Below are positions 3,826 through 31,966 of a stretch of DNA of 60,019 bases, one piece after another (the stretch's first letter is position 1; each line of letters begins with the position of its first letter). A program made the position numbers and the translations under genes. The notes beneath the pieces were generated by a model. It worked only from the letters and a program-made list of their open reading frames with translations, ran no database searches and was not told the origin of the DNA. The stretch comes from Lysobacterales bacterium (GTDB lineage Bacteria; Pseudomonadota; Gammaproteobacteria; Xanthomonadales; Marinicellaceae), in NCBI GenBank assembly GCA_026988115.1, contig JALSLV010000037.1:1-60019 (forward strand), read 5' to 3'.

Positions 3826-3943
3826 GCAATGAGTAATAAAAAACAATGAGTTAAAGGAAACTATTTTGTATTGCAACTATCATTGTTTATTTAAAGCCAA
3901 ACTAAAAACAGTTACAATATGTTTTTTAAAAGCAATTACCTTG

Positions 3944-7655: not shown

Positions 7656-9923
<2,268 letters not shown>

Positions 9924-11122: not shown

Positions 11123-11794
11123 TTAACCACGTTTACGCACGATTTGATAACCTTTTCTAAACAAGTATTTACCTGGAGCACTCCATACGTGTACTAGCCT
11201 TGTGAATGGAAAGACTAGGAACATGGTGAGTCCAAGGAAAATATGAAGTTTGAAAATTAATGGTTCGTGAATGATAAACGCAGCAGCCCCTGGTCTAAAA
11301 GTGACGATATGTTGTGCCCAATTGGCTAACGCTATCATTGATGAACCATCCAAATGTTGCGCAGATACGGGCAAAGTGAGTAAACCCAAACATAATTGCA
11401 CAAACAACAACAACAAAATAAAGATATCAGAAAACTTTGTTGTGGCTTTGATTCTGGGGTTGGTTAATCGCCTATGAATAAGGATAACCATACCGATAAA
11501 GCAGAGTGTTCCGAAGATTCCACCCGCTGTCATTGCCATCACTTGCTTACTTTCTGCACTAATAAAATGCTCATAAACACTATGCGGTGTCAACAACCCA
11601 ACCAAATGCCCAAAGAACAACAAAATGATACCCACATGAAATAAATTTGACCCTACGCGCATGCCTTTTGTACTGAGTAATTGGCTGGATGAGGCTTTCC
11701 ATGTGTATTGATCTCTATCGTATCGAAATAAGCTTCCAAGTAAAAACACTGTGGCAGCAATGTAAGGGTATATTCCAAATAAAAATTCGTTCAT
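11123..11794 (-). CDS. narI: respiratory nitrate reductase gamma subunit NarI
   Basis: NarI is the membrane cytochrome b subunit. It oxidises quinol and passes electrons to NarH. The 223-residue protein has about five hydrophobic helices, as expected. Histidines suited to haem b ligation occur in helix 2 (NLFHVGIILLFFGHLVG) and near the C-terminus (FKLHIFLG and RLVHVWS). Length matches E. coli NarI (225). It is the last gene of the nar operon, one base after narJ. A GGAG ribosome site lies 8 bp before its ATG. The bidirectional terminator at 11045 follows. Confidence 0.95.
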   Translation of the reverse strand: MNEFLFGIYPYIAATVFLLGSLFRYDRDQYTWKASSSQLLSTKGMRVGSNLFHVGIILLFFGHLVGLLTPHSVYEHFISAESKQVMAMTAGGIFGTLCFIGMVILIHRRLTNPRIKATTKFSDIFILLLLFVQLCLGLLTLPVSAQHLDGSSMIALANWAQHIVTFRPGAAAFIIHEPLIFKLHIFLGLTMFLVFPFTRLVHVWSAPGKYLFRKGYQIVRKRG

Positions 11795-11795
11795 T

Positions 11796-12491
11796 TTATT
11801 GCTCCTGAGTTGGCTGTGAATGTGGATTAGATGAGTGAATATTCATCGCTATTTTCTGATGCAAGTAATCCTTTGATTTGAATAAGTTCTTACCAAAAGC
11901 TTCTGGCTCAATCCAATCGGCATCAACATCGGTGAAGGTTTCTTCTTTTTCTGCTGCAACGATTTTTTTAATTTCTGTGCGATTGACTTTACCATCTGCT
12001 ACTTCAATTAAAGCGGCAAAGACATGCTTATAATCAAGTTCTTTTTTTGCAAGTCTTTCGCTAATTAGCATCAATACTTTTTGTGTTTCACCCAAAAAAT
12101 GGGCGGCTACTTTGATGTTTTGAGTGGATAAAAACTCTAAAAATACAGGCAAATAATCAGGTAAATCTGAAGTCCCTACGTCCAAACCATTGGCGTTATA
12201 CATCTCCAATAAATCAATCATGGCTTGTCCTCTATCGCGTGATTCGCCATGTATGTGCTCAAACAAATGCAAAGAGTGCGATGCGCCGCGATCAAATGTC
12301 GCGACATATCGTTCTTGCAATTCGATTAAATCAGAGGATTTAATGCGTTTAATTAACTCACTTAACCCTTTAAGTTTTTGCTTTGAGAGTAATTTTTCAT
12401 CGTACAAAACCTGTTCTAACTCATCGCTGTGTTCAATCCAATCAGCTTGTGGATAGGACAATAATACACTTAATACTTTAAATGTTTTCAT
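11796..12491 (-). CDS. narJ: nitrate reductase assembly chaperone NarJ
   Basis: NarJ is a cytoplasmic TorD-like chaperone that binds apo-NarG and allows molybdenum cofactor insertion and membrane attachment. It is not part of the final enzyme. The 231-residue protein is helical and contains FEHIHGESRDRGQAM, a strongly conserved NarJ segment, and a DYLPVFLEFLS stretch. I chose the second in-frame ATG (12491), because the AGGAG site sits nine bases before it and abuts the first ATG (12500). It overlaps the end of narH slightly if the upstream ATG is used. Confidence 0.93.
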   Translation of the reverse strand: MKTFKVLSVLLSYPQADWIEHSDELEQVLYDEKLLSKQKLKGLSELIKRIKSSDLIELQERYVATFDRGASHSLHLFEHIHGESRDRGQAMIDLLEMYNANGLDVGTSDLPDYLPVFLEFLSTQNIKVAAHFLGETQKVLMLISERLAKKELDYKHVFAALIEVADGKVNRTEIKKIVAAEKEETFTDVDADWIEPEAFGKNLFKSKDYLHQKIAMNIHSSNPHSQPTQEQ

Positions 12492-12492
12492 G

Positions 12493-14085
12493 TTATTCAT
12501 CTCCTAAATCATTGAGCACATTATCGCCTTGCCCTAATACATTACCATTCATGGTATTGTTGCGTTTTTTAGTATCAAAAATATTAAGTTTAATACTTTC
12601 ACCCCCTCCTCCATGGCAACCATTACCAAAACTAAAACCACACGAGCCTTTAACTTCTGAGGCTATTTCGTTATCAAAGGGTGTTTTTCCACCATATTCA
12701 GTGTGATTAGTTGGAATAACAAAGCGGTCTTCGTAATTGGCTAACGCGATGATGCGATACATGTCTTCCATCATAAATTCATTGGCGCCATTTTCTTCCA
12801 GCATTTCCAAATCGGTTACGCCTTCTACGGTTTTCTTACGCATAAATTCACGCAGGACTATCATGCGTTTGAGGGCTTCTTCTACGGGTTTTTCTTCACC
12901 CGCTGTTAGCATATTTGCCAAGTATTTAACAGGAATACGTAATTCGTCAAATTTAGGGAACATGCCATCGGATTGAATTTCTCCTTTTTGCATCGCTGTT
13001 TTAATTGGCGATAAAGGAGGCATATACCAAACCATTGGCAAGGTACGGTACTCTGGATGCAGCGGTAACGCTACTTTCCATTCCATCGCCATTTTGTAAA
13101 CTGGTGATTCTTTAGCGGCTTCTATCCAAGACAAAGGCACTCCGTCTTTTAAGGCTTGCTTTTGAACCTCTGGATCATTTGGATCGAGGAATAAGTCAAG
13201 TTGTGCTTGGTACAAATCTTGCTCGTTTTCAACACTGGCTGCTTCGAGTATTTTATCGGCATCATATAACATCACACCAAGGTAACGAATACGCCCTACA
13301 CATGTTTCAGAACAAACCGTTGGTTCTCCTGCTTCGATACGTGGGTAACAAAATGTGCATTTTTCGCTTTTGCCTGATTCCCAATTAAAGTAAATCTTTT
13401 TGTAGGGACAACCCGATACACACATACGCCAACCGCGGCATTTGTATTGGTCGATTAGAACAATGCCGTCTTCTTCGCGTTTGTAAATTGCTCCTGATGG
13501 GCATGTTGCCACACACGATGGGTTTAGACAATGTTCGCATAAACGCGGCAAATACATCATGAATGTTTCTTCAAACTTGCCGTAAATTTCTTTCTCAATG
13601 TCTTTGAAATTGTAGTCTTTTGAGCGTTTTGAAAATTCACCTCCTAGGATTTCTTCCCAGTTTGGTCCTTTTGTGACCTTTTCCATTACCTCACCCGTAA
13701 TTGCTGAGTGTGCTCTAGCAGTTGGTGGCGTTGGCAATTCTGGTGCATTTTGCAAATGTGCATAATCAAAGGTGAATGGCTCATAATAGTCATCAATTTC
13801 GGGCAAATCAGGGTTGGCAAATATTTTGCTTAATAATTTTAACTTGCCACCCATTTTGGGAATGAGTTTTCCACTTTTAGTGCGTTGCCAACCACCATTC
13901 CAGCGGGCTTGATTTTCCCAATCATCGGGAAAACCGATTCCTGGTTTGGATTCGACATTGTTAAACCAGGCGTATTCAACCCCTTCACGAGAAGTCCAAA
14001 CGTTCTTACACGTCACTGAACAGGTATGGCAACCAATGCATTTATCTAAGTTGAGGACTTTGCCTATTTGCGCTCTAATCTTCAT
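12493..14085 (-). CDS. narH: respiratory nitrate reductase beta subunit NarH
   Basis: NarH is the cytoplasmic-side electron-transfer subunit with one [3Fe-4S] and three [4Fe-4S] clusters. The 530-residue protein shows the four cysteine groups: CIGCHTCSVTC near residue 16, CEHCLNPSCVATCPSG near 184, CRGWRMCVSGCP near 217 (Trp replaces the second cysteine, the hallmark of the [3Fe-4S] site), and CTFCYPR plus a later CVGR. The ATG follows a strong AGGAGGT-like site and overlaps the narG stop by four bases, so the two are translationally coupled. Confidence 0.96.
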   Translation of the reverse strand: MKIRAQIGKVLNLDKCIGCHTCSVTCKNVWTSREGVEYAWFNNVESKPGIGFPDDWENQARWNGGWQRTKSGKLIPKMGGKLKLLSKIFANPDLPEIDDYYEPFTFDYAHLQNAPELPTPPTARAHSAITGEVMEKVTKGPNWEEILGGEFSKRSKDYNFKDIEKEIYGKFEETFMMYLPRLCEHCLNPSCVATCPSGAIYKREEDGIVLIDQYKCRGWRMCVSGCPYKKIYFNWESGKSEKCTFCYPRIEAGEPTVCSETCVGRIRYLGVMLYDADKILEAASVENEQDLYQAQLDLFLDPNDPEVQKQALKDGVPLSWIEAAKESPVYKMAMEWKVALPLHPEYRTLPMVWYMPPLSPIKTAMQKGEIQSDGMFPKFDELRIPVKYLANMLTAGEEKPVEEALKRMIVLREFMRKKTVEGVTDLEMLEENGANEFMMEDMYRIIALANYEDRFVIPTNHTEYGGKTPFDNEIASEVKGSCGFSFGNGCHGGGGESIKLNIFDTKKRNNTMNGNVLGQGDNVLNDLGDE

Positions 14086-17000
14086 GATGCACCTCCGATT
14101 CGTGTATTTTCTGGCTCTGATTCATTTTTCCAGTCTATTTTGTTCATTTTTCTGACCACAACAAACTCATCACGGTTTGAACCAACGGTTCCATAATAGT
14201 TAAATCCATAAGACAATTGTGCATAACCACCAACCATATGAGTTGGTTTTATCACAGCTCGTGTTACTGAGTTATGGATACCTCCACGGAAACCAGAGGT
14301 TTCAGTTGTGGGTGTATTGATAATTTTCTCTTGAGCATGGTACATCATGGTCATGCCCTCAGGTACGCGTTGTGAAACGACAGCACGAGCTGCAATTGTG
14401 CCATTGACGTTATACAATTCAAGCCAATCATTATCAACGACATCCATCTTCTGAGCATCAATTTCTGAAATCCAAACAATTGGACCACCACGTGAGAGGG
14501 TCAACATCAATAGATTTTCTGAATACGTTGAGTGAATTCCCCACTTTTGGTGTGGTGTAATAAAGTTAAGTGCAATTTCTTTATTACCGTTTGGTTTATG
14601 CCCTTTAATTGGCTCAACTGTCTTGGTATTAACAGGTGGCTTGTAGACACATAAACTTTCGCCAAAATCACGCAACCATTTGTGGTCTTGGTAAAAATGT
14701 TGCCTTCCTGTCAAGGTTCTCCACGGAATCAATTCATGCACATTGGTGTAACACGCATTATAACTGACGTGTTCATCCTCAAGTCCAGACCATGTTGGAG
14801 AAGATATAATCTTACGTGGTTGAGCTTGAATGTCATGGAAACGAATCTTTTCATCTTCTTTTGGCTTAGCTAAATGCGTGTGGTCACGTCCAGTAAATTT
14901 ACCTAGAGCCTCCCAGGCTTTAACTGCCACTTGACCATTAGTCTCTGGAGCCAATGACATAATCACTTCCGTTGCATTAATATCCGTCTCAATTTGAGGT
15001 TGATCCTTAGAAACCCCCTCCTCTCGCACTTTTCTATTTAAGCTACGAAGCATTTCTACTTCTTTATCCGTATTCCAAGAAATACCCTTGCCGCCATTAC
15101 CGAGTTTTTCTAGTAATGGACCAACAGAGGTAAATTTCTTGTACGTATTTGGGTAATCGCGTTCAACTTCAATCAAAGATGGCATGGTTTGACCGGGGAT
15201 TGGATCACAATCGCCGTTATACCATTCCTTGACTTCTGTTGCTTGTGCTAATTCGCCTGGAGTATCGTGTTGCATTGGCAGTGTTACGATGTCTTTTTCA
15301 ACACCTAAGTGCCCAACACAAACTTCTGAAAATTTCTTGGCTAATCCTTTAAAGATTGCCCAATCAGATTTTGATTCCCAAGCAGGATCAACCGCTTTAC
15401 TTAATGGATGAATAAATGGATGCATATCTGAGGTATTCAAATCATTCTTTTCATACCATGTTGCTGTTGGCAGAACAATATCAGAATACAAACAGGTTGT
15501 TGACATACGGAAGTCTAAAGTGACGACTAAATCAAGCTTACCTTCGACTGAATCTTCGTGCCATTTAACTTCTGTTGGTAAGTCTTTGCCTAATTTTCCA
15601 ATATCATCACCCATCACTGCATTTTGTGTACCTAGTAAATGCTTAAGCATATACTCATGCCCTTTACCTGATGAACCCAAAATATTAGAACGCCAGATAA
15701 ACATGTTACGTGGGAAGTTTTTAGGGTCATCTGGGTCTTGACAAGAAAACTCTAAATCTTTCGACTTTAATTGACTCACGACATAATCGGCAGATGACAT
15801 ACCCGCTTCTTTAGCACGTTTGGTTAATTCCAGTGGATTTTCCTTCAACTGAGGAGCCGATGGTAACCAACCCATTTTTTCAGAGCGGACATTGCAATCA
15901 ATTAGTGAATATTGACTCCAATCTTTTTTATCAGCTAAGGGTGAAATTAATTCATCGACTTCTAATTTTTCATAACGCCATTGATTGGCATGATTGTAAA
16001 AAAATGATGTGCCATTCATGTGGCGAGGTGGTCTGTGCCAATCGGTGGCAAATGCCAAAGGAAGCCAGCCTGTTTGCGGACGTAGTTTTTCTTGTCCAAC
16101 ATAATGCGCCCAACCACCGCCTGATTTACCAACACAACCACACATCATTAACATGTTCATAATGCCACGGTAGTTCATATCCATGTGATACCAGTGATTC
16201 ATTGCTGCTCCGATAATAACCATGGAACGTCCACGTGTTTTGTCAGCATTTTCGGCAAATTCTTTAGCAATTCTAATAACTGTATTGGCATCAACTCCAG
16301 TGATTTGCTCTTGCCAACCCGGTGTGTAGGGTTGATCATCTTTATAATCTTTAGCACAATTTTCATCACCAAAACCTCTATCAACGCCATAATTTGCCAT
16401 CATTAAGTCAAAAACTGTTGCAACGTATTTGCTGCCATCTTTGGTTTCTATTTTCTTAACTGGTATTTTATGTTTTATAACGTCTTCATGATTTGTGTGT
16501 TGAAAAATTTCTTGATCATGTTGTTTGTTGGCAAAATAAGGAAATGACACTTCAACCACTTTATCGTGGTTATCAATCAATGTTTTTACAGGCCAGATTT
16601 CTGAGCCATTAGTGTTGTCTTTAGTTTCTAAATTCCATTTACCAAGCTCACCTTCTTTTCGGTCTTCCCAGCGAGAACCAATGGTTCCATTTGGTACAAC
16701 AAGGTTATTGGTGTTTTCATCAATTAAGACTGATTTCCATTCTGCTTTATCTTGAGAAGCCAAATCTTTAATGTCACTTGCACGTAACGTGCGTGTAGCA
16801 ACTAATCCGGTCTCGTGTTCATCCAAACAAATCAAGAAAGGCATATCTGTGTATGTGCGGCAATAATCATCAAAGTATTGGCTGACATTATCACGGTGAT
16901 GTTCAGTTAAAATAACATGTCCCATTGCCATAGCCAATGCTGCATCAGTTCCTTGTCGTGCTGGTAACCATTCATCAGTTAATTTTGCTACTTCTGAATA

Positions 17001-17855
17001 ATCTGGTGTGACAGAAACTGTTTTTGTGCCTTTGTAACGCGTTTCGGTAAAAAAGTGAGCATCAGGTGTACGTGTTTGAGGAACATTAGAACCCCAAGCA
17101 ATAATATAAGAAGAATTATACCAATCCGCACTTTCAGGAACATCAGTTTGCTCGCCCCATGTTTGTGGAGATGATGGTGGTAAATCACAATACCAATCAT
17201 AAAAACTTAAACACGTTGCTCCTATTAAAGACAAATAACGAGACCCTGCCGCATAAGAAACCATACTCATGGCTGGAATTGGGGAAAATCCAACGACTCT
17301 ATCTGGGCCATATTCTTTAATGGTATGAACATTTGATGCAGTAATAATTTCATTAACTTCATCCCAATCAGCGCGAACAAAACCACCAAGACCACGAATC
17401 TGCTTGTAAGAATTCGTGTCTTCTTTATTATCCATGATAGATTTCCAAGCCACAACGGGATCAGAATGTTTGGCTTTTGCCGCACGCCATAAGCGCATCA
17501 AGCGACCACGAATCATTGGGTATTTTAGACGCGTCGCCGAATACAAATACCATGAATAACTCGCGCCACGTGGACAACCTCGGGGCTCATGATTAGGCAA
17601 ATCATCACGCGTACGTGGATAATTGGTTTGCTGCGTTTCCCACGTAACCAATCCCCGTTTAACGTAGATTTTCCAGGAGCACGAACCCGTGCAATTCACA
17701 CCGTGAGTTGAACGCACTATTTTATCATGCGACCAACGATTTCGATAAGCCCGTTCCCAACCGCGGTCTTCATCGGTTGTAATACCATGACCCTCTGCAA
17801 ACGTTTCTGGACTTTTCTTAGTTAAATAAGTTAGCCTGTCTAAAAATTGACTCAT
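14082..17855 (-). CDS. narG: respiratory nitrate reductase alpha subunit NarG
   Basis: NarG is the catalytic subunit. It reduces nitrate to nitrite at a bis-MGD molybdenum centre on the cytoplasmic face. The 1257-residue length is typical (E. coli 1247). The N-terminal [4Fe-4S] (FS0) ligands are His51, Cys55, Cys59 and Cys94, one residue off the E. coli numbering. The aspartate in SFYDWYCDLP is the expected molybdenum ligand. There is no twin-arginine signal, as is normal for membrane-bound cytoplasmic Nar. The moeA and mobA genes needed for its cofactor lie about 4.8 kb away in the divergent operon. Confidence 0.97.
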   Translation of the reverse strand: MSQFLDRLTYLTKKSPETFAEGHGITTDEDRGWERAYRNRWSHDKIVRSTHGVNCTGSCSWKIYVKRGLVTWETQQTNYPRTRDDLPNHEPRGCPRGASYSWYLYSATRLKYPMIRGRLMRLWRAAKAKHSDPVVAWKSIMDNKEDTNSYKQIRGLGGFVRADWDEVNEIITASNVHTIKEYGPDRVVGFSPIPAMSMVSYAAGSRYLSLIGATCLSFYDWYCDLPPSSPQTWGEQTDVPESADWYNSSYIIAWGSNVPQTRTPDAHFFTETRYKGTKTVSVTPDYSEVAKLTDEWLPARQGTDAALAMAMGHVILTEHHRDNVSQYFDDYCRTYTDMPFLICLDEHETGLVATRTLRASDIKDLASQDKAEWKSVLIDENTNNLVVPNGTIGSRWEDRKEGELGKWNLETKDNTNGSEIWPVKTLIDNHDKVVEVSFPYFANKQHDQEIFQHTNHEDVIKHKIPVKKIETKDGSKYVATVFDLMMANYGVDRGFGDENCAKDYKDDQPYTPGWQEQITGVDANTVIRIAKEFAENADKTRGRSMVIIGAAMNHWYHMDMNYRGIMNMLMMCGCVGKSGGGWAHYVGQEKLRPQTGWLPLAFATDWHRPPRHMNGTSFFYNHANQWRYEKLEVDELISPLADKKDWSQYSLIDCNVRSEKMGWLPSAPQLKENPLELTKRAKEAGMSSADYVVSQLKSKDLEFSCQDPDDPKNFPRNMFIWRSNILGSSGKGHEYMLKHLLGTQNAVMGDDIGKLGKDLPTEVKWHEDSVEGKLDLVVTLDFRMSTTCLYSDIVLPTATWYEKNDLNTSDMHPFIHPLSKAVDPAWESKSDWAIFKGLAKKFSEVCVGHLGVEKDIVTLPMQHDTPGELAQATEVKEWYNGDCDPIPGQTMPSLIEVERDYPNTYKKFTSVGPLLEKLGNGGKGISWNTDKEVEMLRSLNRKVREEGVSKDQPQIETDINATEVIMSLAPETNGQVAVKAWEALGKFTGRDHTHLAKPKEDEKIRFHDIQAQPRKIISSPTWSGLEDEHVSYNACYTNVHELIPWRTLTGRQHFYQDHKWLRDFGESLCVYKPPVNTKTVEPIKGHKPNGNKEIALNFITPHQKWGIHSTYSENLLMLTLSRGGPIVWISEIDAQKMDVVDNDWLELYNVNGTIAARAVVSQRVPEGMTMMYHAQEKIINTPTTETSGFRGGIHNSVTRAVIKPTHMVGGYAQLSYGFNYYGTVGSNRDEFVVVRKMNKIDWKNESEPENTRIGGAS

Positions 17856-17961: not shown

Positions 17962-19557
17962 CTATGGATTGTGGAACTCAGCCCCTTTTCTCATGTAAAA
18001 CCACCAGTTCAACACCAAACAAACAGCATAGAATATAGCAAAACCATATAAAGCATATTGTGGAGTAGTGGCTTTAATTTGTTCGCCCAAAATCTTAGGA
18101 ATTAAGAATGCGCCATAAGCTGCTATGGCTGAAGTCCAACCTAATACGGGTCCTGCTTGTTCTTTATCAAATATAGTCGCTATGGTTTTAAAAGTAGAGC
18201 CATTACCGATACCAGTAGCGGTAAACAATACCAAAAATAGAATTAGAAAGGGAACAAAATAATCTTGTGGTGTCGCACTGGCATAAGCAAGTTGCATGTA
18301 ATAAGCCACACCAAGAGCTGAACCAATCATGACAATTGAAACCCATTGAGTCACACGAGCACCACCGACTTTGTCAGCAATCATACCACCTACAGGTCGA
18401 ATTAATGCCCCGATAAACGGTCCAGTCCATGCATACATCAAGGCACTTGGTCCATCAGGATTAGCAATATTATGCGTCATAACACCATCAACAATAACGT
18501 GTTTAAACCCAAAGATAACTTTAATAGCCAAACCAAATCCGGCTGCATAACCAATAAAAGAACCAAAAGTCATGGTATAAATAATCGTCATGACCCAGGT
18601 GTGTTTATTTTTAAATATTTGGTATTGGCGGGTTAAATTTTGACCTATAGCACCAGGAATGAGTTTTAATAAAACAACAGTCATGATAATAACAATAGGT
18701 AAGACAATAAATTTATCCAAGTGTTGAACAAGCAACAACCACAAGCCAAATGTAGCAGTCAATAAACCAATAGCTAGCATAAATAAGATTTTGGCAAATG
18801 CCACAAATGGCGAACCAACATTGGGTGAAACATGCTCATCAGCAATATTGTTCATGCCAAACCAGGTAGCAAAAGCCAACGGCACCAACCAAAGCATCCA
18901 CACAAAACCCGCATTTTGAATCCAGGTTTGTGTTCCTGCAGGGATTTTACCAATTAAGGTTCCTGATGTACTTTGTAATGCGAGCGAATCTCCACCCATA
19001 GAACCGAATAAAGCAATCGTCATCACCAATGGTACCAAAATTTGCATGGTTGTAACGCCAAAATTACCAAGACCTGCATTCATACCTAATGAATAACCTT
19101 GAACTTTTTTAGGGTAAAAATAGGAAATATTACTCATGGATGAGGCAAAATTACCGCCACCGATACCCGATAACAATGCCCATAATTGAAACTGCCATAA
19201 AGGTGTTTCAGGATTTTGCAAGGCAAAACCCGCACCCAATGCCGGAATCATCAATAAAGCGGTTGTTAGAAATATTGTATTTCTACCTCCAGCTATGCGT
19301 ATAAAGAATGTTGAAGGAATTCTTAATGTTGCTCCGGATAAACCTGCAATTGCCATCAAAGTGAATAATTCTGATTTTTCAAAGGCAAAACCCAAGTTCA
19401 TCATTTGTACGGTGATAATTCCCCAGTATAACCATACGGCAAAACCCACTAATAAAGCAGGAATAGAAATCCACAGATTTCTAGTGGCAATTTTTTTGCC
19501 ATAGGAATTCCATTGCTGCTCGTCTTCTGGATTCCAGTTTGTTAAGTCTTTAGCCAT
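17962..19557 (-). CDS. narK: nitrate/nitrite transporter, NarK2 type (MFS, NNP family)
   Basis: A membrane protein of 531 residues with about 12-14 hydrophobic helices. It is an NNP-family MFS transporter of the longer NarK2 kind, usually a nitrate/nitrite antiporter. Family signatures are visible: the GIGGGNFASSMSNISYFYP segment, a repeat of the nitrate signature, around residue 150, and GNGSTFKTIATIF in the second half. I chose the ATG at 19557, behind AGAGGAG. The upstream in-frame ATG at 19593 lies inside a hairpin. Paired with narK1, it supplies nitrate to the cytoplasmic NarG site and exports nitrite. Confidence 0.9.
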   Translation of the reverse strand: MAKDLTNWNPEDEQQWNSYGKKIATRNLWISIPALLVGFAVWLYWGIITVQMMNLGFAFEKSELFTLMAIAGLSGATLRIPSTFFIRIAGGRNTIFLTTALLMIPALGAGFALQNPETPLWQFQLWALLSGIGGGNFASSMSNISYFYPKKVQGYSLGMNAGLGNFGVTTMQILVPLVMTIALFGSMGGDSLALQSTSGTLIGKIPAGTQTWIQNAGFVWMLWLVPLAFATWFGMNNIADEHVSPNVGSPFVAFAKILFMLAIGLLTATFGLWLLLVQHLDKFIVLPIVIIMTVVLLKLIPGAIGQNLTRQYQIFKNKHTWVMTIIYTMTFGSFIGYAAGFGLAIKVIFGFKHVIVDGVMTHNIANPDGPSALMYAWTGPFIGALIRPVGGMIADKVGGARVTQWVSIVMIGSALGVAYYMQLAYASATPQDYFVPFLILFLVLFTATGIGNGSTFKTIATIFDKEQAGPVLGWTSAIAAYGAFLIPKILGEQIKATTPQYALYGFAIFYAVCLVLNWWFYMRKGAEFHNP

Positions 19558-19587
19558 AATATATATGCTCCTCTTAAATAATGATAA

Positions 19588-19615
19588 AGCCATCGCCTCT
19601 GGTGAGGCAATGGCT
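19588..19615 (-). terminator. Hairpin between narK1 and narK2
   Basis: AGCCATCGCCTC pairs with GAGGCAATGGCT across a four-base loop, with one mismatch. Read in the direction of transcription it is followed by a T-rich stretch. It may be a partial terminator, or an mRNA-stabilising hairpin that sets the narK1 to narK2 ratio. Confidence 0.5.
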
Positions 19616-19622
19616 GATTTTT

Positions 19623-20924
19623 TTAATTAATTTGATCTAGTTCTGGTAGATGCTGTGCATTGCGTAATTCTGGGTGCGCTCTTCTCTCTGCTCGTCTAAT
19701 GGCAAAGTGCATCCAAATCAATGAAACTGCAATAATCACTGACAACAACATAAAGCAACTAGTCCATACACCTATGTGGTCATTCATAATGCCAAAGGTA
19801 ATGGGTAAGATGAAACCACCTAAACCACCAATCAATCCAACAATACCACCCACAGAACCAACGTTCTCAGGAAAGTAATGAGGAATATGCTTGTACACTG
19901 CGGCTTTACCTAATGACATAAAGAAACCTAAAATTATTGTCATGGTGACGAACAACCATAATGGAATAGTAATATTAAAAGCTATAGGTCCTTCAATGCC
20001 CTTTACCACGTAATCTGTTGATGGGTAAGACATGATAATTGTGCAAATCAAAGTCACTGTAAATGTCCAATACATGATTGTGCGTGCACCAAACTTATCA
20101 GATAACCAACCACCGAGTGCTCTAAATATAGCTCCAGGCAAGGCATAAGCTGCTGCCAACATACCAGCCGTAGCTAATGGCAGATGATAAGCTCCAACAT
20201 AGTAACGTGGTAACCATAAGGCTAATGCCACATAACCACCGAAAACAAAGAAATAATACAAAGCAAAACGCCAGACAATCAAATGTTTAAGTGGCTTAAT
20301 TTGTTCCATAAATGGTCGTGCCTTACCTCTTTCTCCAGTATGGGCTGGATCTGTTTTACTGAATAAAAAGAATAAAACAGCGGTAATGGCTAACACAGAT
20401 GCGTAAACCAACACAACTTTTCGCCATTCTCCACCCATTGCAACAAGCAATATAGGTGCCCCAAAGTTAGTTACCGCAGCACCAACATTACCAGCTCCAA
20501 ATATACCAAGAGCGGTGCCTTGTTTATGGTCAGGATACCAAGAAGAAACATAGGCAATACCAACAGCAAAAGAACCACCAGCCAAACCAAGACCTAATGC
20601 ACCAACTAAGTACATTCCATAACTGTGGGCATAGGTTAAAAAGAAAGCAGCTAATGCTGATGTCAACATTTGTAGTGTATAAACAATACGACCACCGTAT
20701 TGATCCGTCCATATACCTAAAAATATTCGACTCAATGAACCCGTTAGAATTGGTGTAGCGACCAAAAGACCAAATTGAGTATCACTTAATCCCAATTCTC
20801 CTTTAATTTTGATACCAATAATGGAAAAGATTGTCCACACAGCAAAACAAACAGTAAATGCCAATGTGCTTAATGTCAGCGCCTTAGTTTGTTCACTCTT
20901 GGGCACATTTTCTAAATTTTTCAT
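19623..20924 (-). CDS. narK: nitrate transporter, NarK1 type (MFS, NNP family)
   Basis: The 433-residue protein is a 12-helix MFS transporter of the NarK1 class, usually nitrate/proton symporters. Visible signatures are GLAGGSFAVGIAYVSSWYP in the first half and GGIVGLIGGLGGFILPI in the second, plus the ALGIFGAGNVGAA loop. It is the first gene of the leftward nar transcript. An AGAGG site precedes the ATG. Upstream are an FNR/DNR-type box and a matching -10. The narK1-narK2-narGHJI order is also seen in pseudomonads. Confidence 0.92.
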   Translation of the reverse strand: MKNLENVPKSEQTKALTLSTLAFTVCFAVWTIFSIIGIKIKGELGLSDTQFGLLVATPILTGSLSRIFLGIWTDQYGGRIVYTLQMLTSALAAFFLTYAHSYGMYLVGALGLGLAGGSFAVGIAYVSSWYPDHKQGTALGIFGAGNVGAAVTNFGAPILLVAMGGEWRKVVLVYASVLAITAVLFFLFSKTDPAHTGERGKARPFMEQIKPLKHLIVWRFALYYFFVFGGYVALALWLPRYYVGAYHLPLATAGMLAAAYALPGAIFRALGGWLSDKFGARTIMYWTFTVTLICTIIMSYPSTDYVVKGIEGPIAFNITIPLWLFVTMTIILGFFMSLGKAAVYKHIPHYFPENVGSVGGIVGLIGGLGGFILPITFGIMNDHIGVWTSCFMLLSVIIAVSLIWMHFAIRRAERRAHPELRNAQHLPELDQIN

Positions 20925-20965
20925 GATTACCTCTGCAAAATATACAAATAGAAATTTATGAGAGT

Positions 20966-21008
20966 ATTTTAGGAATTGCTTAATGAAGTCACTTGATTGA
21001 AATCAAGT
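20966..21008 (-). promoter_or_regulatory. FNR/DNR-type box and -10 element of the narK1K2GHJI operon
   Basis: TTGATTGAAATCAA at 20993-21006 is a perfect match to TTGAT-N4-ATCAA, and the symmetry extends to ACTTGAT...ATCAAGT. On the minus strand, TAAAAT (20971-20966) lies about 30 bp downstream of the box centre. That spacing puts the box near -41.5, as in class II FNR-activated promoters. The box sits between the nar operon and the divergent NIT-CRP regulator gene, so either that protein or a separate FNR could bind it. Confidence 0.85.
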
Positions 21009-21099
21009 ATTGACATTTATTGATTAAATTTCATCTCATTACAACAAATAGTGTTGGTTATCGGTAAAATAGCATTAATCAAATAATTTCTAATAATTA

Positions 21100-22608
21100 A
21101 TGAATCAACTTCTAACACTATTATGTCAATCCATTCATGCGTTTCAAAAAGAACGCGGCAGTCTCTGTTTGTATTTGTCTACAAAAGACGAATACAGCCT
21201 TGAAAAATTACAACAAATCATTAAGACCAACGACTTGTTGATTGAAGAGATACTGCAATTTGCTCAGCATGAGGGTAAAAAATTTAATGCAGACCAACGA
21301 AAAAGTTACGATAAACTTCAACATATCTATACAAACTTTAGCAACAAAGCTCAGTTCAGACAAAACACCCAACAAAAAGAAATCGATATCCTACAAGCCT
21401 CTTCACTCTACACATACAGCCTTATCGTTCACTTAGGTTATGTGTTAATTGAACTCGCCTTATTTGATAAACGCAACATCCCTGCAGAAATATCAGCACT
21501 CTCAAACTACATCAACTGGAAAGAACGTATTGGTCGAGAACGTGCTTTAGGCATAGTTGGCTTTGCTTTCAATGAATTTGACTCAGAACAATTTCGCCGT
21601 GATTTTAAAATATTAATCAGTGAACAGAGCATTAATAAACGTTCATTTTTAGCCCTTGCAAGTGAGCGCCAAAGAAAGGCTTTTGAGGGTTGCTTTATCA
21701 TCAATACGGACATTGAAGAAGTTCACAAAAAAATGGAGGCCGATGAAGTTCCTCAGGTAAATGCCAAAAACTGGTATGACATGCTAACTGAAAAAATGGA
21801 GATGATGCATGTCATTGAACTGGCCCTAATCAAGCAATTAAATAATCAACCAAGCAATGAATCACCCATACAGTGCTCTATTCCACAACAGGATCAATCG
21901 GTTATTTTAGACTTTCCTTTTTTTAGAAATTTATCTCAATCAACCGTTAACGAATTATTTAGACTCAGTAACATTAAAAGCTATAAAAAAGGCAGCTTAC
22001 TGTTTTTAGAGGGGGAACCAGCCTCTCGAATTTATGTTATTTTGTGTGGTTGGGTCAAAATCTACAAAAGCACAGCTGATGGCAATGAAACTGTTGAACA
22101 AATGCTTTCCACGGGTAACTTGGTTATCGAATCATCCATTTTTACTAATGATAAATACTACAGCAGTGCACAAATTAGTAATGAAGCCAAATTGATGTCT
22201 TTTCCCTCTTCAATTTATCGAAATTTATTAAACAAAGACCTTGCATTAGCCTTAAATTCATTAAAATATTTATCGCAAACTTCCAGAAGTTATTTAAGTC
22301 AAATTGATAACAACCGTTTAAAATCTTCCAAGGAAAGAGTTGGGTGGTTTTTACTCAAGCAATTTATTGAACAAAAAAACCCCAATACAATTTTATTACC
22401 TTATGAAAAAACCATTATTGCTTCCTTATTGGACATGAAACCAGAAACTTTTTCTCGCTCCTTAAAATCCTTTAAAAACAGGGGGTTGTCTTCAGAAAAA
22501 CACCAAATTCAAATTAAAGACATAAAAATGCTATGCCATTATTGTGACGAAAATTTATCAACTCATTGCCAATTTAAAAACAACCATTCAGAATGCCGGT
22601 TCAAATAA
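21100..22608 (+). CDS. NIT-domain / CRP-FNR family fusion transcriptional regulator
   Basis: The 502-residue protein has no membrane segment. Residues 5-245 resemble the NIT (nitrate- and nitrite-sensing) domain: FQKERGSLCLYL near residue 15 and WKERIGRERALGIVGF near 141 are the paired ERG/ERA signatures. Residues 270-385 are a CRP/FNR-type beta-roll (GSLLFLEGEPASRIYVILCGWVKIY). Residues 400-475 are a CRP-type HTH (LDMKPETFSRSLKSFKNRG). A cysteine-rich tail follows with Cys479, Cys482, Cys490 and Cys499. The FNR N-terminal Fe-S cysteines are absent. It is divergent from narK1 across the FNR-type box and one base upstream of moeA. I infer a nitrate-responsive activator of nar and cofactor genes. 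The domain calls rest on motifs only. Confidence 0.8.
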   Translation: MNQLLTLLCQSIHAFQKERGSLCLYLSTKDEYSLEKLQQIIKTNDLLIEEILQFAQHEGKKFNADQRKSYDKLQHIYTNFSNKAQFRQNTQQKEIDILQASSLYTYSLIVHLGYVLIELALFDKRNIPAEISALSNYINWKERIGRERALGIVGFAFNEFDSEQFRRDFKILISEQSINKRSFLALASERQRKAFEGCFIINTDIEEVHKKMEADEVPQVNAKNWYDMLTEKMEMMHVIELALIKQLNNQPSNESPIQCSIPQQDQSVILDFPFFRNLSQSTVNELFRLSNIKSYKKGSLLFLEGEPASRIYVILCGWVKIYKSTADGNETVEQMLSTGNLVIESSIFTNDKYYSSAQISNEAKLMSFPSSIYRNLLNKDLALALNSLKYLSQTSRSYLSQIDNNRLKSSKERVGWFLLKQFIEQKNPNTILLPYEKTIIASLLDMKPETFSRSLKSFKNRGLSSEKHQIQIKDIKMLCHYCDENLSTHCQFKNNHSECRFK

Positions 22609-22609
22609 C

Positions 22610-23884
22610 ATGCAAAAGAAAAAACTCTTACCCTACCCTAAGGCGCTTGAGTTAATCGAACAAGTCGCTACTAGCCACCGCATTAATTCATGCCAACAGT
22701 GCGAGTTGGAAAATGCGCTTAATCGTTTAGTAGCCGAAGACATCTTATCACCAATAAATGTGCCCAGTTTTAATAATTCAGCCATGGATGGTTTTGCCAT
22801 CCAAACAAAAATTGTCAATGATGCCATTAAAAAATTCGGCAACATCACTCTTAACGTATCAGGAAGCATCCAAGCAGGCGATTGCCAAGAGATTAATCCG
22901 GATACCGAGCATTTGGCTTGGGAAATTATGACTGGTGCTCCTGTTCCTGATTTATTTGATGGCGTTATTCAGATTGAAAAGGTAGAAATCAACCAAAGTA
23001 AGGGCAACAAAACCATTACTTTGTCAGAATTAGTGCAAAAAGGCAGAAATATTCGAAAACGAGGAACAGACTATAAAATTAACGACTCTGTAGTCAAAAA
23101 ACACACCCTTATTCAATCGCAACATATTATGGCACTTGCCACTGTTGGTATTAAGTGCATTAAAGTTGTTGAAAAAATAAAAGTGGCTATTTTATCCACA
23201 GGCAATGAACTGGCTAAAAAGTCTTCATCTTCATTAACTTCTGGAAAAATATTTAATTCTAATCAACCTTTCTTAAAATCTTATTCGCAAAGCCTTAATT
23301 GTGACCCTGTTTTTGTTGGGCGTTGTCATGACAATATAAATGCCTTTAATAAACTGATTGATGATGCATTGGCAAAAGAGGTTAAGGTAATTTTTTCCAC
23401 TGGGGCTGTCTCAATGGGAAAATATGATTTTATTCCTCAAGCATTACTTGCCCGTGGTGCCGAGATTCATTTTCATAAAGCTAAGATTCGCCCTGGAAAA
23501 CCAATTTTATTTGCAGAACTTCCCAATGGTGTCATTTATTTTGGCTTACCAGGAAATCCCATTGCAGCAGCAGCTGGTATGCGATTTTTTGTCTCACCAT
23601 TTATACGCACCCTGTTAAAGCTTCCATCAGAAAAAATCCTCAAAGCGCAAGTTAGTGCAGATATGAGTAAAAAGAAAGGTTTTCGCACTTTTGCTAAAGC
23701 ACTGGCTCACATTGATCAGAAAGGTCAATTATGTGTAACAATGTTATCCGATCAAGGCTCATACCAATCGTGTTCGTTTGCTCAGTCTAATTGTTGGTTG
23801 ATACTACCAGAGGAAAGTGAAAACATAAAAAAAGGGGAACTGATAAATATTGCACCAATGGTGCCCAATCAAATGGTGTTGTAA
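22610..23884 (+). CDS. moeA: molybdopterin molybdenumtransferase MoeA
   Basis: MoeA inserts molybdate into adenylylated molybdopterin, the last step before nucleotide attachment. The 424-residue protein carries family motifs in order: NNSAMDGFAI near residue 57, STGNELAK near 198, STGAVSMGKYDF near 263, RPGKPILFAE near 300 and LPGNPIAAAAG near 317. I chose the ATG at 22610, directly after the stop of the NIT-CRP gene; an upstream start at 22544 would overlap that gene. Close coupling to the nitrate regulator suggests that cofactor maturation is matched to NarG synthesis. Confidence 0.93.
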   Translation: MQKKKLLPYPKALELIEQVATSHRINSCQQCELENALNRLVAEDILSPINVPSFNNSAMDGFAIQTKIVNDAIKKFGNITLNVSGSIQAGDCQEINPDTEHLAWEIMTGAPVPDLFDGVIQIEKVEINQSKGNKTITLSELVQKGRNIRKRGTDYKINDSVVKKHTLIQSQHIMALATVGIKCIKVVEKIKVAILSTGNELAKKSSSSLTSGKIFNSNQPFLKSYSQSLNCDPVFVGRCHDNINAFNKLIDDALAKEVKVIFSTGAVSMGKYDFIPQALLARGAEIHFHKAKIRPGKPILFAELPNGVIYFGLPGNPIAAAAGMRFFVSPFIRTLLKLPSEKILKAQVSADMSKKKGFRTFAKALAHIDQKGQLCVTMLSDQGSYQSCSFAQSNCWLILPEESENIKKGELINIAPMVPNQMVL

Positions 23885-24420
23885 TGAATTCTATTGCAGG
23901 GGTGGTTTTAGCTGGAGGACTTTCTTCTCGAATGGGTACGGACAAATCACAATTAACGATAAAGAATCAAACACTGCTAGAAAGAACTAAAAAGCTAGTT
24001 ATTGATGCTGGTATTGAATCCGTTTTTGTTAGTGGCCGTTATGGAATCGAAGACACAATGAGTGGATTTGGACCATTGGGAGGGATAGCAACTTGCCTGC
24101 AACAACTAACAGGGTATACTCACATTCTTTTCATTCCTGTGGATATGCCTCTACTCAAAGCTAAAATAATAAAAACGATTATTCAGAAAATGAGCCTTGA
24201 CTTAAGCCACTTAGAGAAGCATAAATTTCCGTTTATTATAAAAAACACAAAAGAAATACGTCGGCTTGTTGCTACACAAATTTCAAATGAGCAATTATCG
24301 CTTCACCAATTGTTTAAACAACTGCAAGTCAAAAAAATTGAACATTGCTTTAGACAGGAATATTTCCTCAACACCAATTCACCAAAACAATGGCAAGAAG
24401 CTATGAGACAACTTCAATGA
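23884..24420 (+). CDS. mobA: molybdenum cofactor guanylyltransferase MobA
   Basis: MobA joins GMP to Mo-molybdopterin to make the MGD cofactor, which NarG requires as bis-MGD. The 178-residue protein shows the nucleotidyltransferase signature LAGGLSSRMGTDKSQL at residues 9-24 and VDMPLL near residue 83. It is slightly short for the family (about 190-200). Its ATG overlaps the moeA stop (TAATG), so the two are translationally coupled. Its 3' end overlaps the convergent phosphatase gene by 20 bp. Confidence 0.9.
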   Translation: MNSIAGVVLAGGLSSRMGTDKSQLTIKNQTLLERTKKLVIDAGIESVFVSGRYGIEDTMSGFGPLGGIATCLQQLTGYTHILFIPVDMPLLKAKIIKTIIQKMSLDLSHLEKHKFPFIIKNTKEIRRLVATQISNEQLSLHQLFKQLQVKKIEHCFRQEYFLNTNSPKQWQEAMRQLQ

Positions 24421-28753: not shown

Positions 28754-31700
28754 CTATGAAATATTTGGGCTAGCTATTTTTTTATATGAATTAACCAATT
28801 TTATCAATTCATCAGACTTGATTGGCTTAAGAAATATTTCATGAATTCCAATTTCTTCACAGATTTGCATGACCTCATCGGTAATATCTCCTGTTAATAA
28901 CACAATATTGGTAGCAGGAAATTCTGACAAGATGCGTCGTGACATATCTATCCCATTCATTTCAGGCATCGAGTTATCAGTTAGCACCAAATCATATTTC
29001 TGGGGATTTTTAAAAAACAAATCGATGCCTTCCAAACCATTTTTACCGACATCGTAATTGATATTATTTTCATCAAGTATCAGTGTAATTAACTCAACCA
29101 AAGAAGCGGAGTCATCAAGTAGTAAGATTTTTTTAGAACTCTTAGGTGGCATTAAGCGGGGTTGAGATTCTTCTGAAGAATTTCTTTGCTTTTGCTCTAC
29201 TAATGGAATTACCAGTTTAAAACACATTCCCTCATTTTCATTTGCATAGACTTGAATATGACCACTCATTTTGTGTATGTTTGTGTTAACCACATGCAAT
29301 CCGATTCCTGTACTGTTCGTATTGGCACTAAAAAACGGTTTGAAAATATGGGGTAAAAGGTCTTTTTCAATGCCTTTTCCCGTATCAGCAATGATTAACT
29401 CCAAATAATTTCCCTGAATAGTTTGTTGGCACGAGGTGCATAAATCACTGTTTTTGTTATCTACTACGGCAGTGGTAATTGTAATTTCGCCGTAATCACC
29501 ACAGGCATTTCGAGCATTAATTATTAAATTCAAGATGATCTGATTAAACTGACTCAAATCTGCTTTTATAAAGGCTTTTTCTGTAGAAAAATTCATCGTG
29601 AACTGAATTGTATTTGGAATGCCTATTTTTATTAAAGATAAGATATCCGTCAAAGCATCATACACACAGAAAGTATGGCTTTTATCTGAATCTTTTCGTG
29701 TAAAATTAAGTAACTGTCCGATAACTTCTTTACAATTTTCAGCGGTTAACAATATGTTATTGAGCCATTTAAGGTTTTCATTTTGTTGAGAACCCCTTTG
29801 CTCTAAATCTTTTTTTATGACTTCAGTGCCAATAAATATGACTGATAACATATTGTTAAAATCGTGTGCAATACCACTGGTTAGCTGTCCCACGATTTCC
29901 ATTTTTTGAGCTTCTTGAAGTTGCTTTTCCTTATCTAAAGTTAACACCATTTGTTGCTCTAACTCTTTACTTTTCCTCTCTATTTCAGTATTTAAAATCT
30001 CACGACTGTGTTGTTCTCTTTGCAGCTCTCTTTTTTGAATTAGTTTCAAGGACTCTGTTTTTTGGGCAACAAGTTTTGATAATTTGTTCCTTTCTTTTCT
30101 ATGCCTTAAATCTCTAAAATAATCATTAAGATAATAAAGAAGAATCAGTGCAATCCCCACTAATGCGATAAACCACGGTTTTTGATAAAAATAAGGCATT
30201 ATACTAAAATGAATAGAATTTTCTGCACCTTCACTCCAGCCACTGACTGAGTTTTTGACTTGCGCTTTAAATTCATACGCATTTGGCTTTAGGTTGGCAT
30301 AAATAACCGCTTTTTTATTTTCCGAGTTGGTATAATTCCATTGTAAGTCAACTCCGATCAACCTATAACGGTAATCCAGAGGCAACAATTCATTTAAAGA
30401 TTCTCTTCCAAATGTAAAATTATAAGAGTTTTTACTTGGAGCAAATTTCATGTTAGTTGACGTATGCTCTATTGATTCGTCATCAATTTTTAAATCAATG
30501 TTAATTGATTTTGGCGGTTGCACGGGCGTTTTGTTTTTCTTTTTTAAAGATAACACACCACTTTTACAGGTGAAAAAAATCTGAGACTCAAAATTTTTAA
30601 CTAGTGCTCCATGACCACTGTTGCATTCATTCTTATTTAAGCCTGGAGTTGGCAAAATTTCAAATGCTAAGGAATCTTTTTGGGAATAATCGAATAACCA
30701 TTTTTCTCTTATTCGTAAAATCCCATTTTCCCCTAATAAGACCAAATCATTATCGGAGGTAATTTCTATGCTGTAAAATGAAAATTGTTTTAAGATTTTA
30801 TTAAGTTTATACCTTTTTACTTGTTTATCATTGGTTTTAACGAGTTGATTGTCTTCACTGCTATAATACCAAATGGAATCTGACTTATTATCATAAGCGA
30901 TAACAAAGTTTAAGTTTTGTAAATTATTAGTTATTTCATTTTGAAAAAAACGACCATTCTGGTAAATATAAACATTTTGTTCTGTTATCATTAGAATTTT
31001 CTTTTCTTTTAACAGGAGCACTGTGCTAATAATTTCATCATTAGGAAGACTTAGTCGTTTAAAGGGAGTTTTGTCTAGCAAGTTTTTATAAAACAACCCT
31101 TTCTCGGTGCCAACCCATAAATTGTTATCCGTATCTTTTTGTAAAAATTTATAAAATAATGCCCCTATTTCTGAAATAATTTTCGGGTTTCTGCCTGCTG
31201 CCTCAAACAACACTAAATCAGATTTATAGGCAACCCAAACCTGATCATTGAGCCCTTCTTCAATATCGTATAAAGCATTTTTTTTTAATTCTGGCAACAG
31301 TGTCGTGATTTCTTGGTTGTTATGAATTATTGAAAGACCATTAAAGCCCCCAAACCATTTATCGTGATTTTTAGTCTCGATGTAACTGTCAGGATTGACT
31401 TTTGTTTGCAGCAATTCAAAGGGAGTTTGCTTAAGCCTAAAGAGTCCTTCTCCCCAAGTAGCAAACCAAATGTTTCCATACTTATCCTCAACTATGCCTC
31501 GTATTCGCAATCTCATGTTATTGGAAAGGTTGATTTTTTTAAGTGTTTTATTAGCATAAAGGACAAGCCCTTTGTTTGTACCAAACCATAAACGACCAAT
31601 GGAGTCTTCGAAAATTACTCTTGCAATAACAGAAATAGGATGAGAATCCATTACGTGGTTTTTGGTGTTAAATCTAAATACACCTTTGTTGGTATTAATT

Positions 31701-31966
31701 AACAATATTCCATCACTGGTCAAAAACATTGACACCACAATTAACTCAGAATTACCTAATAAAATTTTATTAACTGTCTTTGCGGTATTATCTAATACAT
31801 AAATAACACCCTGAGAACCAATAAAAATATCGGCAGAATCAGAAGGGATATAAATTGATGACACCTTAATATCAGTAACTTGTTGTGCTTTTTGATGGTT
31901 GTTTGAAATTTTGTAAAGCCTGAAATCGCTAGCAAACCAAACTGAATCATCCCCTAGATACTGCAA
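28754..31966 (-). CDS. hybrid two-component sensor kinase, main part (frameshifted from its N-terminus)
   Basis: This 1070-codon frame encodes most of a hybrid sensor kinase. The order is: beta-propeller repeats (Reg_prop type, to about residue 480), a Y_Y_Y domain (about 505-590), one membrane helix (about 598-617), a coiled coil, and a HisKA domain with phospho-accepting His701 in GIAHDFNN. A HATPase follows (N box LILNLIINARNA, G boxes DTGKGIE and TGIGLHV), then a C-terminal receiver with Asp997 in LTDNSMPEMNG. The propeller would lie in the periplasm. There is no output HTH. The frame has only a TTG near its beginning and no signal peptide. Both are supplied by the overlapping fragment at 31947-32357, so the gene seems broken by a single-base frameshift. 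Confidence 0.85.
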   Translation of the reverse strand: MQYLGDDSVWFASDFRLYKISNNHQKAQQVTDIKVSSIYIPSDSADIFIGSQGVIYVLDNTAKTVNKILLGNSELIVVSMFLTSDGILLINTNKGVFRFNTKNHVMDSHPISVIARVIFEDSIGRLWFGTNKGLVLYANKTLKKINLSNNMRLRIRGIVEDKYGNIWFATWGEGLFRLKQTPFELLQTKVNPDSYIETKNHDKWFGGFNGLSIIHNNQEITTLLPELKKNALYDIEEGLNDQVWVAYKSDLVLFEAAGRNPKIISEIGALFYKFLQKDTDNNLWVGTEKGLFYKNLLDKTPFKRLSLPNDEIISTVLLLKEKKILMITEQNVYIYQNGRFFQNEITNNLQNLNFVIAYDNKSDSIWYYSSEDNQLVKTNDKQVKRYKLNKILKQFSFYSIEITSDNDLVLLGENGILRIREKWLFDYSQKDSLAFEILPTPGLNKNECNSGHGALVKNFESQIFFTCKSGVLSLKKKNKTPVQPPKSINIDLKIDDESIEHTSTNMKFAPSKNSYNFTFGRESLNELLPLDYRYRLIGVDLQWNYTNSENKKAVIYANLKPNAYEFKAQVKNSVSGWSEGAENSIHFSIMPYFYQKPWFIALVGIALILLYYLNDYFRDLRHRKERNKLSKLVAQKTESLKLIQKRELQREQHSREILNTEIERKSKELEQQMVLTLDKEKQLQEAQKMEIVGQLTSGIAHDFNNMLSVIFIGTEVIKKDLEQRGSQQNENLKWLNNILLTAENCKEVIGQLLNFTRKDSDKSHTFCVYDALTDILSLIKIGIPNTIQFTMNFSTEKAFIKADLSQFNQIILNLIINARNACGDYGEITITTAVVDNKNSDLCTSCQQTIQGNYLELIIADTGKGIEKDLLPHIFKPFFSANTNSTGIGLHVVNTNIHKMSGHIQVYANENEGMCFKLVIPLVEQKQRNSSEESQPRLMPPKSSKKILLLDDSASLVELITLILDENNINYDVGKNGLEGIDLFFKNPQKYDLVLTDNSMPEMNGIDMSRRILSEFPATNIVLLTGDITDEVMQICEEIGIHEIFLKPIKSDELIKLVNSYKKIASPNIS

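Follow-up and report, generated by a model that had tools for sequence, protein, structure and literature searches.

NarR, reportedly the subject of a study by Wood et al. in 2001, is among the described regulators with which the locus treated here has to be compared. In extracts of PMC8139620 and PMC3541799 it is presented as an FNR-like regulator responsive to nitrate/nitrite and as an activator, in alphaproteobacteria it is reported in place of NarXL (PMC8139620, extract), and in Sphingopyxis a NarR-like ftrB is placed divergent from narU (PMC7713065, extract). The NIT domain is described for NasR in an extract of PMC8199190, and E175 and R176 of that protein are predicted to lie in the nitrate pocket (PMC7496416, extract). 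According to an extract of PMC6381276 the purified NIT domain of PA4520 bound neither nitrate nor nitrite, so that a NIT domain alone is no guarantee of nitrate sensing, and NIT subfamilies with other ligands are proposed there; a nitrate-responsive NIT domain of another protein has been used in a Tar hybrid (PMC5936718, extract). In Bacillus subtilis Fnr the cluster cysteines are located at the C terminus, and the extract of that paper (PMC3520743) does not mention a NIT domain. Among the open-licence papers surveyed, with subscription journals largely outside, none was seen to describe a CRP-family protein that carries a NIT domain, extracts of PMC8014003, PMC8199190, PMC7496416, PMC6381276, PMC5936718, PMC4618731, PMC6956133, PMC11526790 and PMC1274295 included.

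The window, i.e. the whole stretch of 60,019 nucleotides that was analysed, contains on its forward strand a 502-aa open reading frame (21100..22608) whose product, here called NIT-CRP, carries such a fusion. A Pfam search (hmmscan) of the whole protein places a NIT domain (PF08376) at residues 12-247 (21133..21840, forward strand), matched over positions 3-238 of the 239 in the profile (E 6.3e-25; 89.4 bits, the cut-off being 24.9), followed by the CRP/FNR beta-roll (cNMP_binding, residues 293-380, 21976..22239, E 2.6e-16) and a Crp-type helix-turn-helix (HTH_Crp_2, residues 412-480, 22333..22539, E 1.1e-10), all three exceeding their Pfam cut-offs. A sequence-only reading of this DNA had claimed a NIT domain joined to a CRP/FNR core and had proposed the PF08376 search; the nearly full-length match bears out the claim, and the paired signatures that the reading had pointed to are indeed present (ERG at residues 18-20, ERA at 147-149). 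The combination of beta-roll and Crp-type helix-turn-helix places the protein in the CRP/FNR superfamily, and an eight-row family alignment compared to the PDB likewise gave CRP/FNR-type proteins, including DNR, as top matches. The top NCBIfam model is FtrB (123 bits, below its cut-off of 211). FNR proper was considered and rejected, as no N-terminal CxxC..C motif was seen by eye before the beta-roll in the eight family rows; the FNR model scores 31.6 bits against a cut-off of 228. In the SSAQ stretch after E344, where the phosphate-binding Arg of the cNMP pocket would be expected in a cAMP-responsive CRP, no Arg was seen by eye. The NIT domain is the sole PF08376 match in its own genome, and from its start at the N terminus alone the protein is taken to be probably soluble. 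An AlphaFold2 model built from four rows, the regulator and three near-identical relatives, reached a pLDDT of 34.4 and a pTM of 0.27 and is not usable for reading the fold.

The NIT-CRP family is real and conserved, and its members are CRP/FNR regulators in which the core is joined to a NIT input and to a cysteine tail. Conservation was assessed in 50 distinct full-length proteins, the window's own regulator included, of which nine come from its family and 41 from outside its class (G1280, G1315, G1319, G1332 and G1343 were left out of this set); the number of copies, together with the low dN/dS given below, rules out a chance fusion or misassembly. Full-length copies occur in 9/33 genomes of the window's family, and fragments in G002 and in G008, the latter at a contig end. 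Among 398 genomes of the order none was found outside the family, among 368 other genomes of the class none at E <= 1e-40, and in a sample of the phylum two of 397 other genomes, both outside the class, carried one, only the best three or four first-look candidates per genome being scored in these large searches. In the orders of these two carriers the protein was found in 6/150 genomes and, as a single match spanning both domains, in 36/147, with three further genomes of the latter order (G1274, G1278 and G1280) matched partly or in two pieces. A NIT domain alone was found in 78/369 class genomes, some of which were examined for the CRP part. A contig scan for the window regulator gave four close loci. 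The copies in L002, L003 and L004 are 89-96% identical, their record titles conflict (Alcanivoracaceae versus Lysobacterales MAGs), and their public placement is poor. A tblastn search of plasmids matched 465 records, each over less than 80% of the query, and an Acidithiobacillus plasmid CRP was matched through residue 500, yet lacks the cysteine tail.

The setting of the gene is that of respiratory nitrate reduction. Divergent from the regulator, on the reverse strand, are two NarK-family transporter genes assigned by Pfam, narK1 (19623..20924) and narK2 (17962..19593), which match TIGR00886 at 222.5 and 271 bits, both below its curated cut-off of 311.7. These are followed by the Pfam-assigned genes for the alpha (narG, 14082..17855) and beta (narH, 12493..14085) subunits of the respiratory nitrate reductase, for a member of the delta subunit family (narJ, 11796..12500) and for the gamma subunit (narI, 11123..11794), all in the same orientation; the position divergent from narK1K2GHJI noted in the sequence-only reading therefore stands. 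Downstream on the forward strand, likewise by Pfam, moeA (22610..23884) and a gene for a mobA-like NTP transferase (23884..24420) follow. The coupling to moeA-mobA also proved correct: the moeA ATG sits one base past the regulator stop codon, so that regulator and moeA are probably cotranscribed, and an alternative in-frame GTG at 22544 would even make the two genes overlap. Elsewhere the window encodes a hybrid two-component protein (28754-31966, reverse strand) that combines Reg_prop and Y_Y_Y with HATPase and receiver domains, a YcaO protein whose N-terminal domain is OsmC-like (135-2306, forward strand) and a 636-codon open reading frame (3866-5776, forward strand) for which Pfam gave nothing at E <= 1e-8.

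The survey of nar association that had been called for shows this linkage in most copies. Of the 50 distinct copies, 44 have a narK-like gene facing away from them at a distance of at most 1.5 kb, although the one in L162 and L163 shares just 25% identity with narK1 and is followed by narK2 and narG, and narG is present in 25/28 longer stretches holding a full NIT-CRP, the window included. In the DNA examined, six copies are without a divergent narK (L120, L128, the second copy in L149, L156, L158 and L159), the upstream DNA examined being short for L120 (654 bases) and L128 (796 bases). In L149 (G1312) two NIT-CRP genes stand in tandem beside narK (about 8058-9599 and 11152-12678), the second without a narK of its own. 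In L159 (G1274) a NarR-type CRP sits between NIT-CRP and narK at the same nar locus, which implies that the two regulators can coexist.

Between narK1 and the regulator gene lies an FNR-type palindrome (TTGATTGAAATCAA, 20993..21006), centred 75 nt before the narK1 start, which the sequence-only reading, sound in its architecture, signatures and neighbours, had overlooked together with the C-terminal cysteine tail. In facing away from narK across an FNR-type box, NIT-CRP shows the arrangement of NarR in Paracoccus. A TAAAAT hexamer resembling a -10 element (20966..20971, reverse strand, toward narK1) starts 29 nt from the box centre. Among 50 intergenic regions (44 from NIT-CRP, three from tail-only and three from NarR-type loci; L144 gave none), TTGAT-N4-ATCAA occurs exactly in 16 and with at most one mismatch in 35, against 0.02 and 1.04 expected in first-order resampled sequences; NIT-CRP loci account for 10 of the former and 29 of the latter. 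TTGAY-N4-RTCAA is the element conserved in all three alignment groups, which hold 34 of the 44 NIT-CRP intergenics, and it is found exactly in 43/44 against 1.0 expected, this expectation being its rate over larger loci with the intergenics themselves included. The ten intergenics outside the alignments that gave this element had been covered by the stricter TTGAT-N4-ATCAA scan, and nine of them carry the wider form (L174 does not). All these counts come from related sequences and do not represent independent events. Every one of the 43 box-bearing intergenics has a site whose centre is 59-111 nt ahead of the narK start. No second element as strongly conserved across the three groups was found in the 34 aligned intergenics, and a generic promoter scan of 20900-21150 gave one further site, not above shuffles.

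Over the 34 intergenics the match to TATAAT peaks for hexamers that start 29-30 nt away from the centre of the box (mean 3.56/6, at least four matches in 16/34), as would be expected of a class II site at -41.5; the match is modest, the offset was ranked against other offsets alone, and the runner-up offset, 28-29, has a mean of 3.38 with four or more matches in 18/34. The spacing of the box thus fits a class II narK promoter. The same region bears on another reading, in which NIT-CRP does not activate nar but acts as a local autoregulator or as a repressor, either of moeA-mobA or, when nitrate is absent, of nar. The direction of regulation is unreadable from sequence and moeA begins one base behind the regulator gene, which would allow for such a role, but the spacing between box and best -10-like hexamer toward narK, examined in 34 of the 44 intergenics, is that of a class II activator site and NarR at a similar locus is described as an activator (extracts of PMC3541799 and PMC8139620), which leaves this reading very improbable. 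A point against activation by NIT-CRP is that FNR on its own might use a box of this type.

What the sensor domain responds to can be approached through NasR. A profile of nine family NIT regions matched NasR (PDB 4akk) over the whole NIT domain (E 1.8e-22), the single PDB sequence found at E <= 0.01, with R19 aligned to chain residue 77 and E147-R148 to residues 202-203. As E175 and R176 of NasR sit at chain residues 202-203, the numbering offset is 27, and we infer that R19 is the counterpart of NasR R50. Both pocket arginines of NasR are hence aligned in NIT-CRP and retained in almost all copies (R19 in 49/50 with one gap, R148 in 49/50 with one F), with E147 present in just 44/50. The NIT part has a dN/dS of 0.06 to 0.11 in six pairs among four close relatives, by which measure it is under purifying selection. 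The NIT domain might nevertheless be a cytosolic sensor of another anion or metabolite, to which the protein would tune nar; the behaviour of the PA4520 domain and the subfamilies suggested from it (PMC6381276, extract) allow for this, as does the divergence of the domain, which in six outside-class rows is 26-33% identical to the window protein. Such a ligand is considered unlikely in view of the linkage to nar in 44/50 copies and of the two conserved NasR pocket arginines, which point to nitrate or nitrite. On the same two grounds, nitrate control of nar through NIT-CRP is supported.

On the DNA-binding side, the stretch E449-T-F-S452-R453, which we take to be the FNR-type recognition motif, has E449, T450, S452 and R453 each in 50/50 copies; a helix of the type E-T-x-S-R reads TTGAT. 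It is followed by the cysteine tail, C479-x2-C482-D483-x6-C490-x8-C499 (22534..22596, forward strand), a putative metal or Fe-S site. C482, D483, C490 and C499 are found in 50/50 copies and C479 in 49/50, with one unread residue that is also the lone miss of the tail regular expression (49/50 matched). Across the family the pattern is CxxCD-x6-C-x(7-8)-C, the last spacing being x7 except in the window's own protein and the three relatives closest to it, where it is x8. The four cysteines are probable ligands of an Fe-S cluster or of zinc, which may stabilise the protein or give it a second, redox/oxygen input. The tail is also present in 5/49 NIT-less CRP rows, gathered by similarity, three of the five at nar loci, and is consequently not tied to NIT alone.

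Invariance of the tail, its persistence without NIT at nar loci and the C-terminal cluster cysteines of B. subtilis Fnr (PMC3520743, extract) could mean that the tail is the working sensor, its Fe-S cluster being oxygen-labile like that of Bacillus FNR, that the NIT domain is mainly structural or a minor modulator, and that nar is controlled by anoxia. Yet the NIT domain is under purifying selection with its pocket arginines kept, and a canonical FNR is already present in the own genome, so that this reading appears quite improbable. This FNR has the CxxC..C motif and scores 200.5 bits, under the model cut-off of 228, and because of it nar probably receives input from more than NIT-CRP. In two of nine NIT-CRP genomes tested (G1117 and G1140) the FNR model NF008365 gave no match at E <= 1e-10, and an oxygen input via the tail would be more pressing there. 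Sensors of the NarX/NarQ type were sought with PF13675 (PilJ), with E. coli as a positive control. None was found in the own genome by this model, the sole matching frame, with two weak matches (32.3 bits for the whole protein against a cut-off of 26.6), being a chemoreceptor with an MCPsignal domain, as is the frame in G010. PF13675 matched in 9/9 genomes of the window's family tested, the strongest frame being that of G007, and in 0/11 outside-class genomes at E <= 0.001. The own genome further holds a DNR-like CRP adjoining an open reading frame read by eye as a cytochrome cd1 nitrite reductase.

The history of the family was examined in a tree of 99 CRP cores, which was rooted at its midpoint and has long branches at L097 and L168-L170, both of which limit its reading. 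NIT-CRP and tail-only proteins share a single clade (86/95, short of the star given by the tree program), and the NarR-type CRPs, four rows identified by position of which two Paracoccus records annotate no gene there, form a separate clade (100/100). That NIT-CRP is NarR under another name was therefore rejected, the NarR-type proteins having a clade of their own and neither NIT nor tail. The nine copies of the window's family form one clade (100/100) nested in outside-class copies (97/84), which, together with the absence of the protein elsewhere in the class, suggests that the nar cluster was acquired horizontally together with its regulator. In L168, L169 and L170 a NIT-less, tail-bearing CRP with an exact FNR box occupies the narK-divergent slot. 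In L161 (G1292) a NIT-less copy is nested within the NIT-CRPs at a non-nar locus with the gene order of L156 (G1304), reflecting either natural loss of the NIT domain or a gap in the assembly. These cases imply that NIT is dispensable in some lineages. A 216-codon neighbour in L156 is a carbonic anhydrase, the gene order around it matching that of L161.

Taken together, NIT-CRP is read as a one-component cytosolic, nitrate- (or nitrite-) responsive activator of the CRP/FNR family acting on the divergent narK1K2GHJI operon and perhaps also on its own moeA-mobA operon, a reading given a probability of roughly three in four, and it is most likely, judging from sequence and gene context, the nar nitrate switch in these bacteria. 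Nitrate would enter the cell via NarK and bind in the NIT helical bundle, flanked by R19 and R148, and this may alter the contact between the NIT domain and the CRP core in the manner in which NIT controls ANTAR in NasR. The dimer would then bind TTGAY-N4-RTCAA, a box possibly shared with the FNR of the genome, through the E-T-F-S-R helix and recruit RNA polymerase, while Fe-S or zinc in the tail may provide stability or a second, redox input. More tentatively, and with odds somewhat short of even, NIT-CRP may be a coincidence detector in which NIT reads nitrate and the CxxCD-C-C tail carries an Fe-S cluster labile to oxygen or NO, the dimer firing narK only with nitrate present and oxygen absent; the family would then be a widespread unnamed class moving with nar clusters between the classes of one phylum, and a single dimer would do the work split elsewhere between NarXL (or NarR) and FNR. 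The cysteine tail makes such a two-signal design directly testable.

If the activator reading is confirmed, NIT-CRP would add a further route, beside NarXL/NarQP and NarR, by which nitrate is coupled to the respiratory nitrate reductase, and would give the NIT domain an output by direct DNA binding that was not met in the open-licence literature, as far as its extracts go. How NarR senses nitrate is left unexplained in the extracts cited here, and NIT-CRP offers a purifiable, mutable protein for that question as well as a compact candidate part for nitrate biosensors.

Compared to NarX/NarL and NarQ/NarP, NIT-CRP would perform the same task, the nitrate-dependent control of nar, but as one component instead of a two-component system with a membrane sensor. 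With NasR of Klebsiella oxytoca it shares a NIT input in a one-component regulator and the aligned pocket arginines; the output of NasR, however, is an RNA-binding ANTAR antiterminator in place of a CRP/FNR DNA-binding core, and NasR controls the nasFEDCBA operon (PMC7496416, extract), whereas NIT-CRP is linked to respiratory nar. The Fnr proteins of Bacillus subtilis and B. cereus likewise carry a cysteine-rich extension after the helix-turn-helix, which in Bacillus binds a [4Fe-4S] cluster, but their spacing, C(x4)C(x2)C(x3)C, or C-x2-C-x4-C for three ligands (PMC3520743, extract), is not matched by the CxxCD-x6-C-x(7-8)-C tail of NIT-CRP. The Paracoccus proteins, taken as NarR by organism and position as the gene is unannotated in those records, resemble NIT-CRP in that their CRP/FNR core is encoded divergently from narK and an FNR-type box separates the two genes, but differ from it in their length of about 235-255 codons and in lacking both NIT and cysteine tail. 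The set of FNR, DNR and NIT-CRP in the own genome parallels FnrP, NNR and NarR of Paracoccus, and by this analogy NIT-CRP would occupy the slot of NarR, but with an explicit sensor domain.
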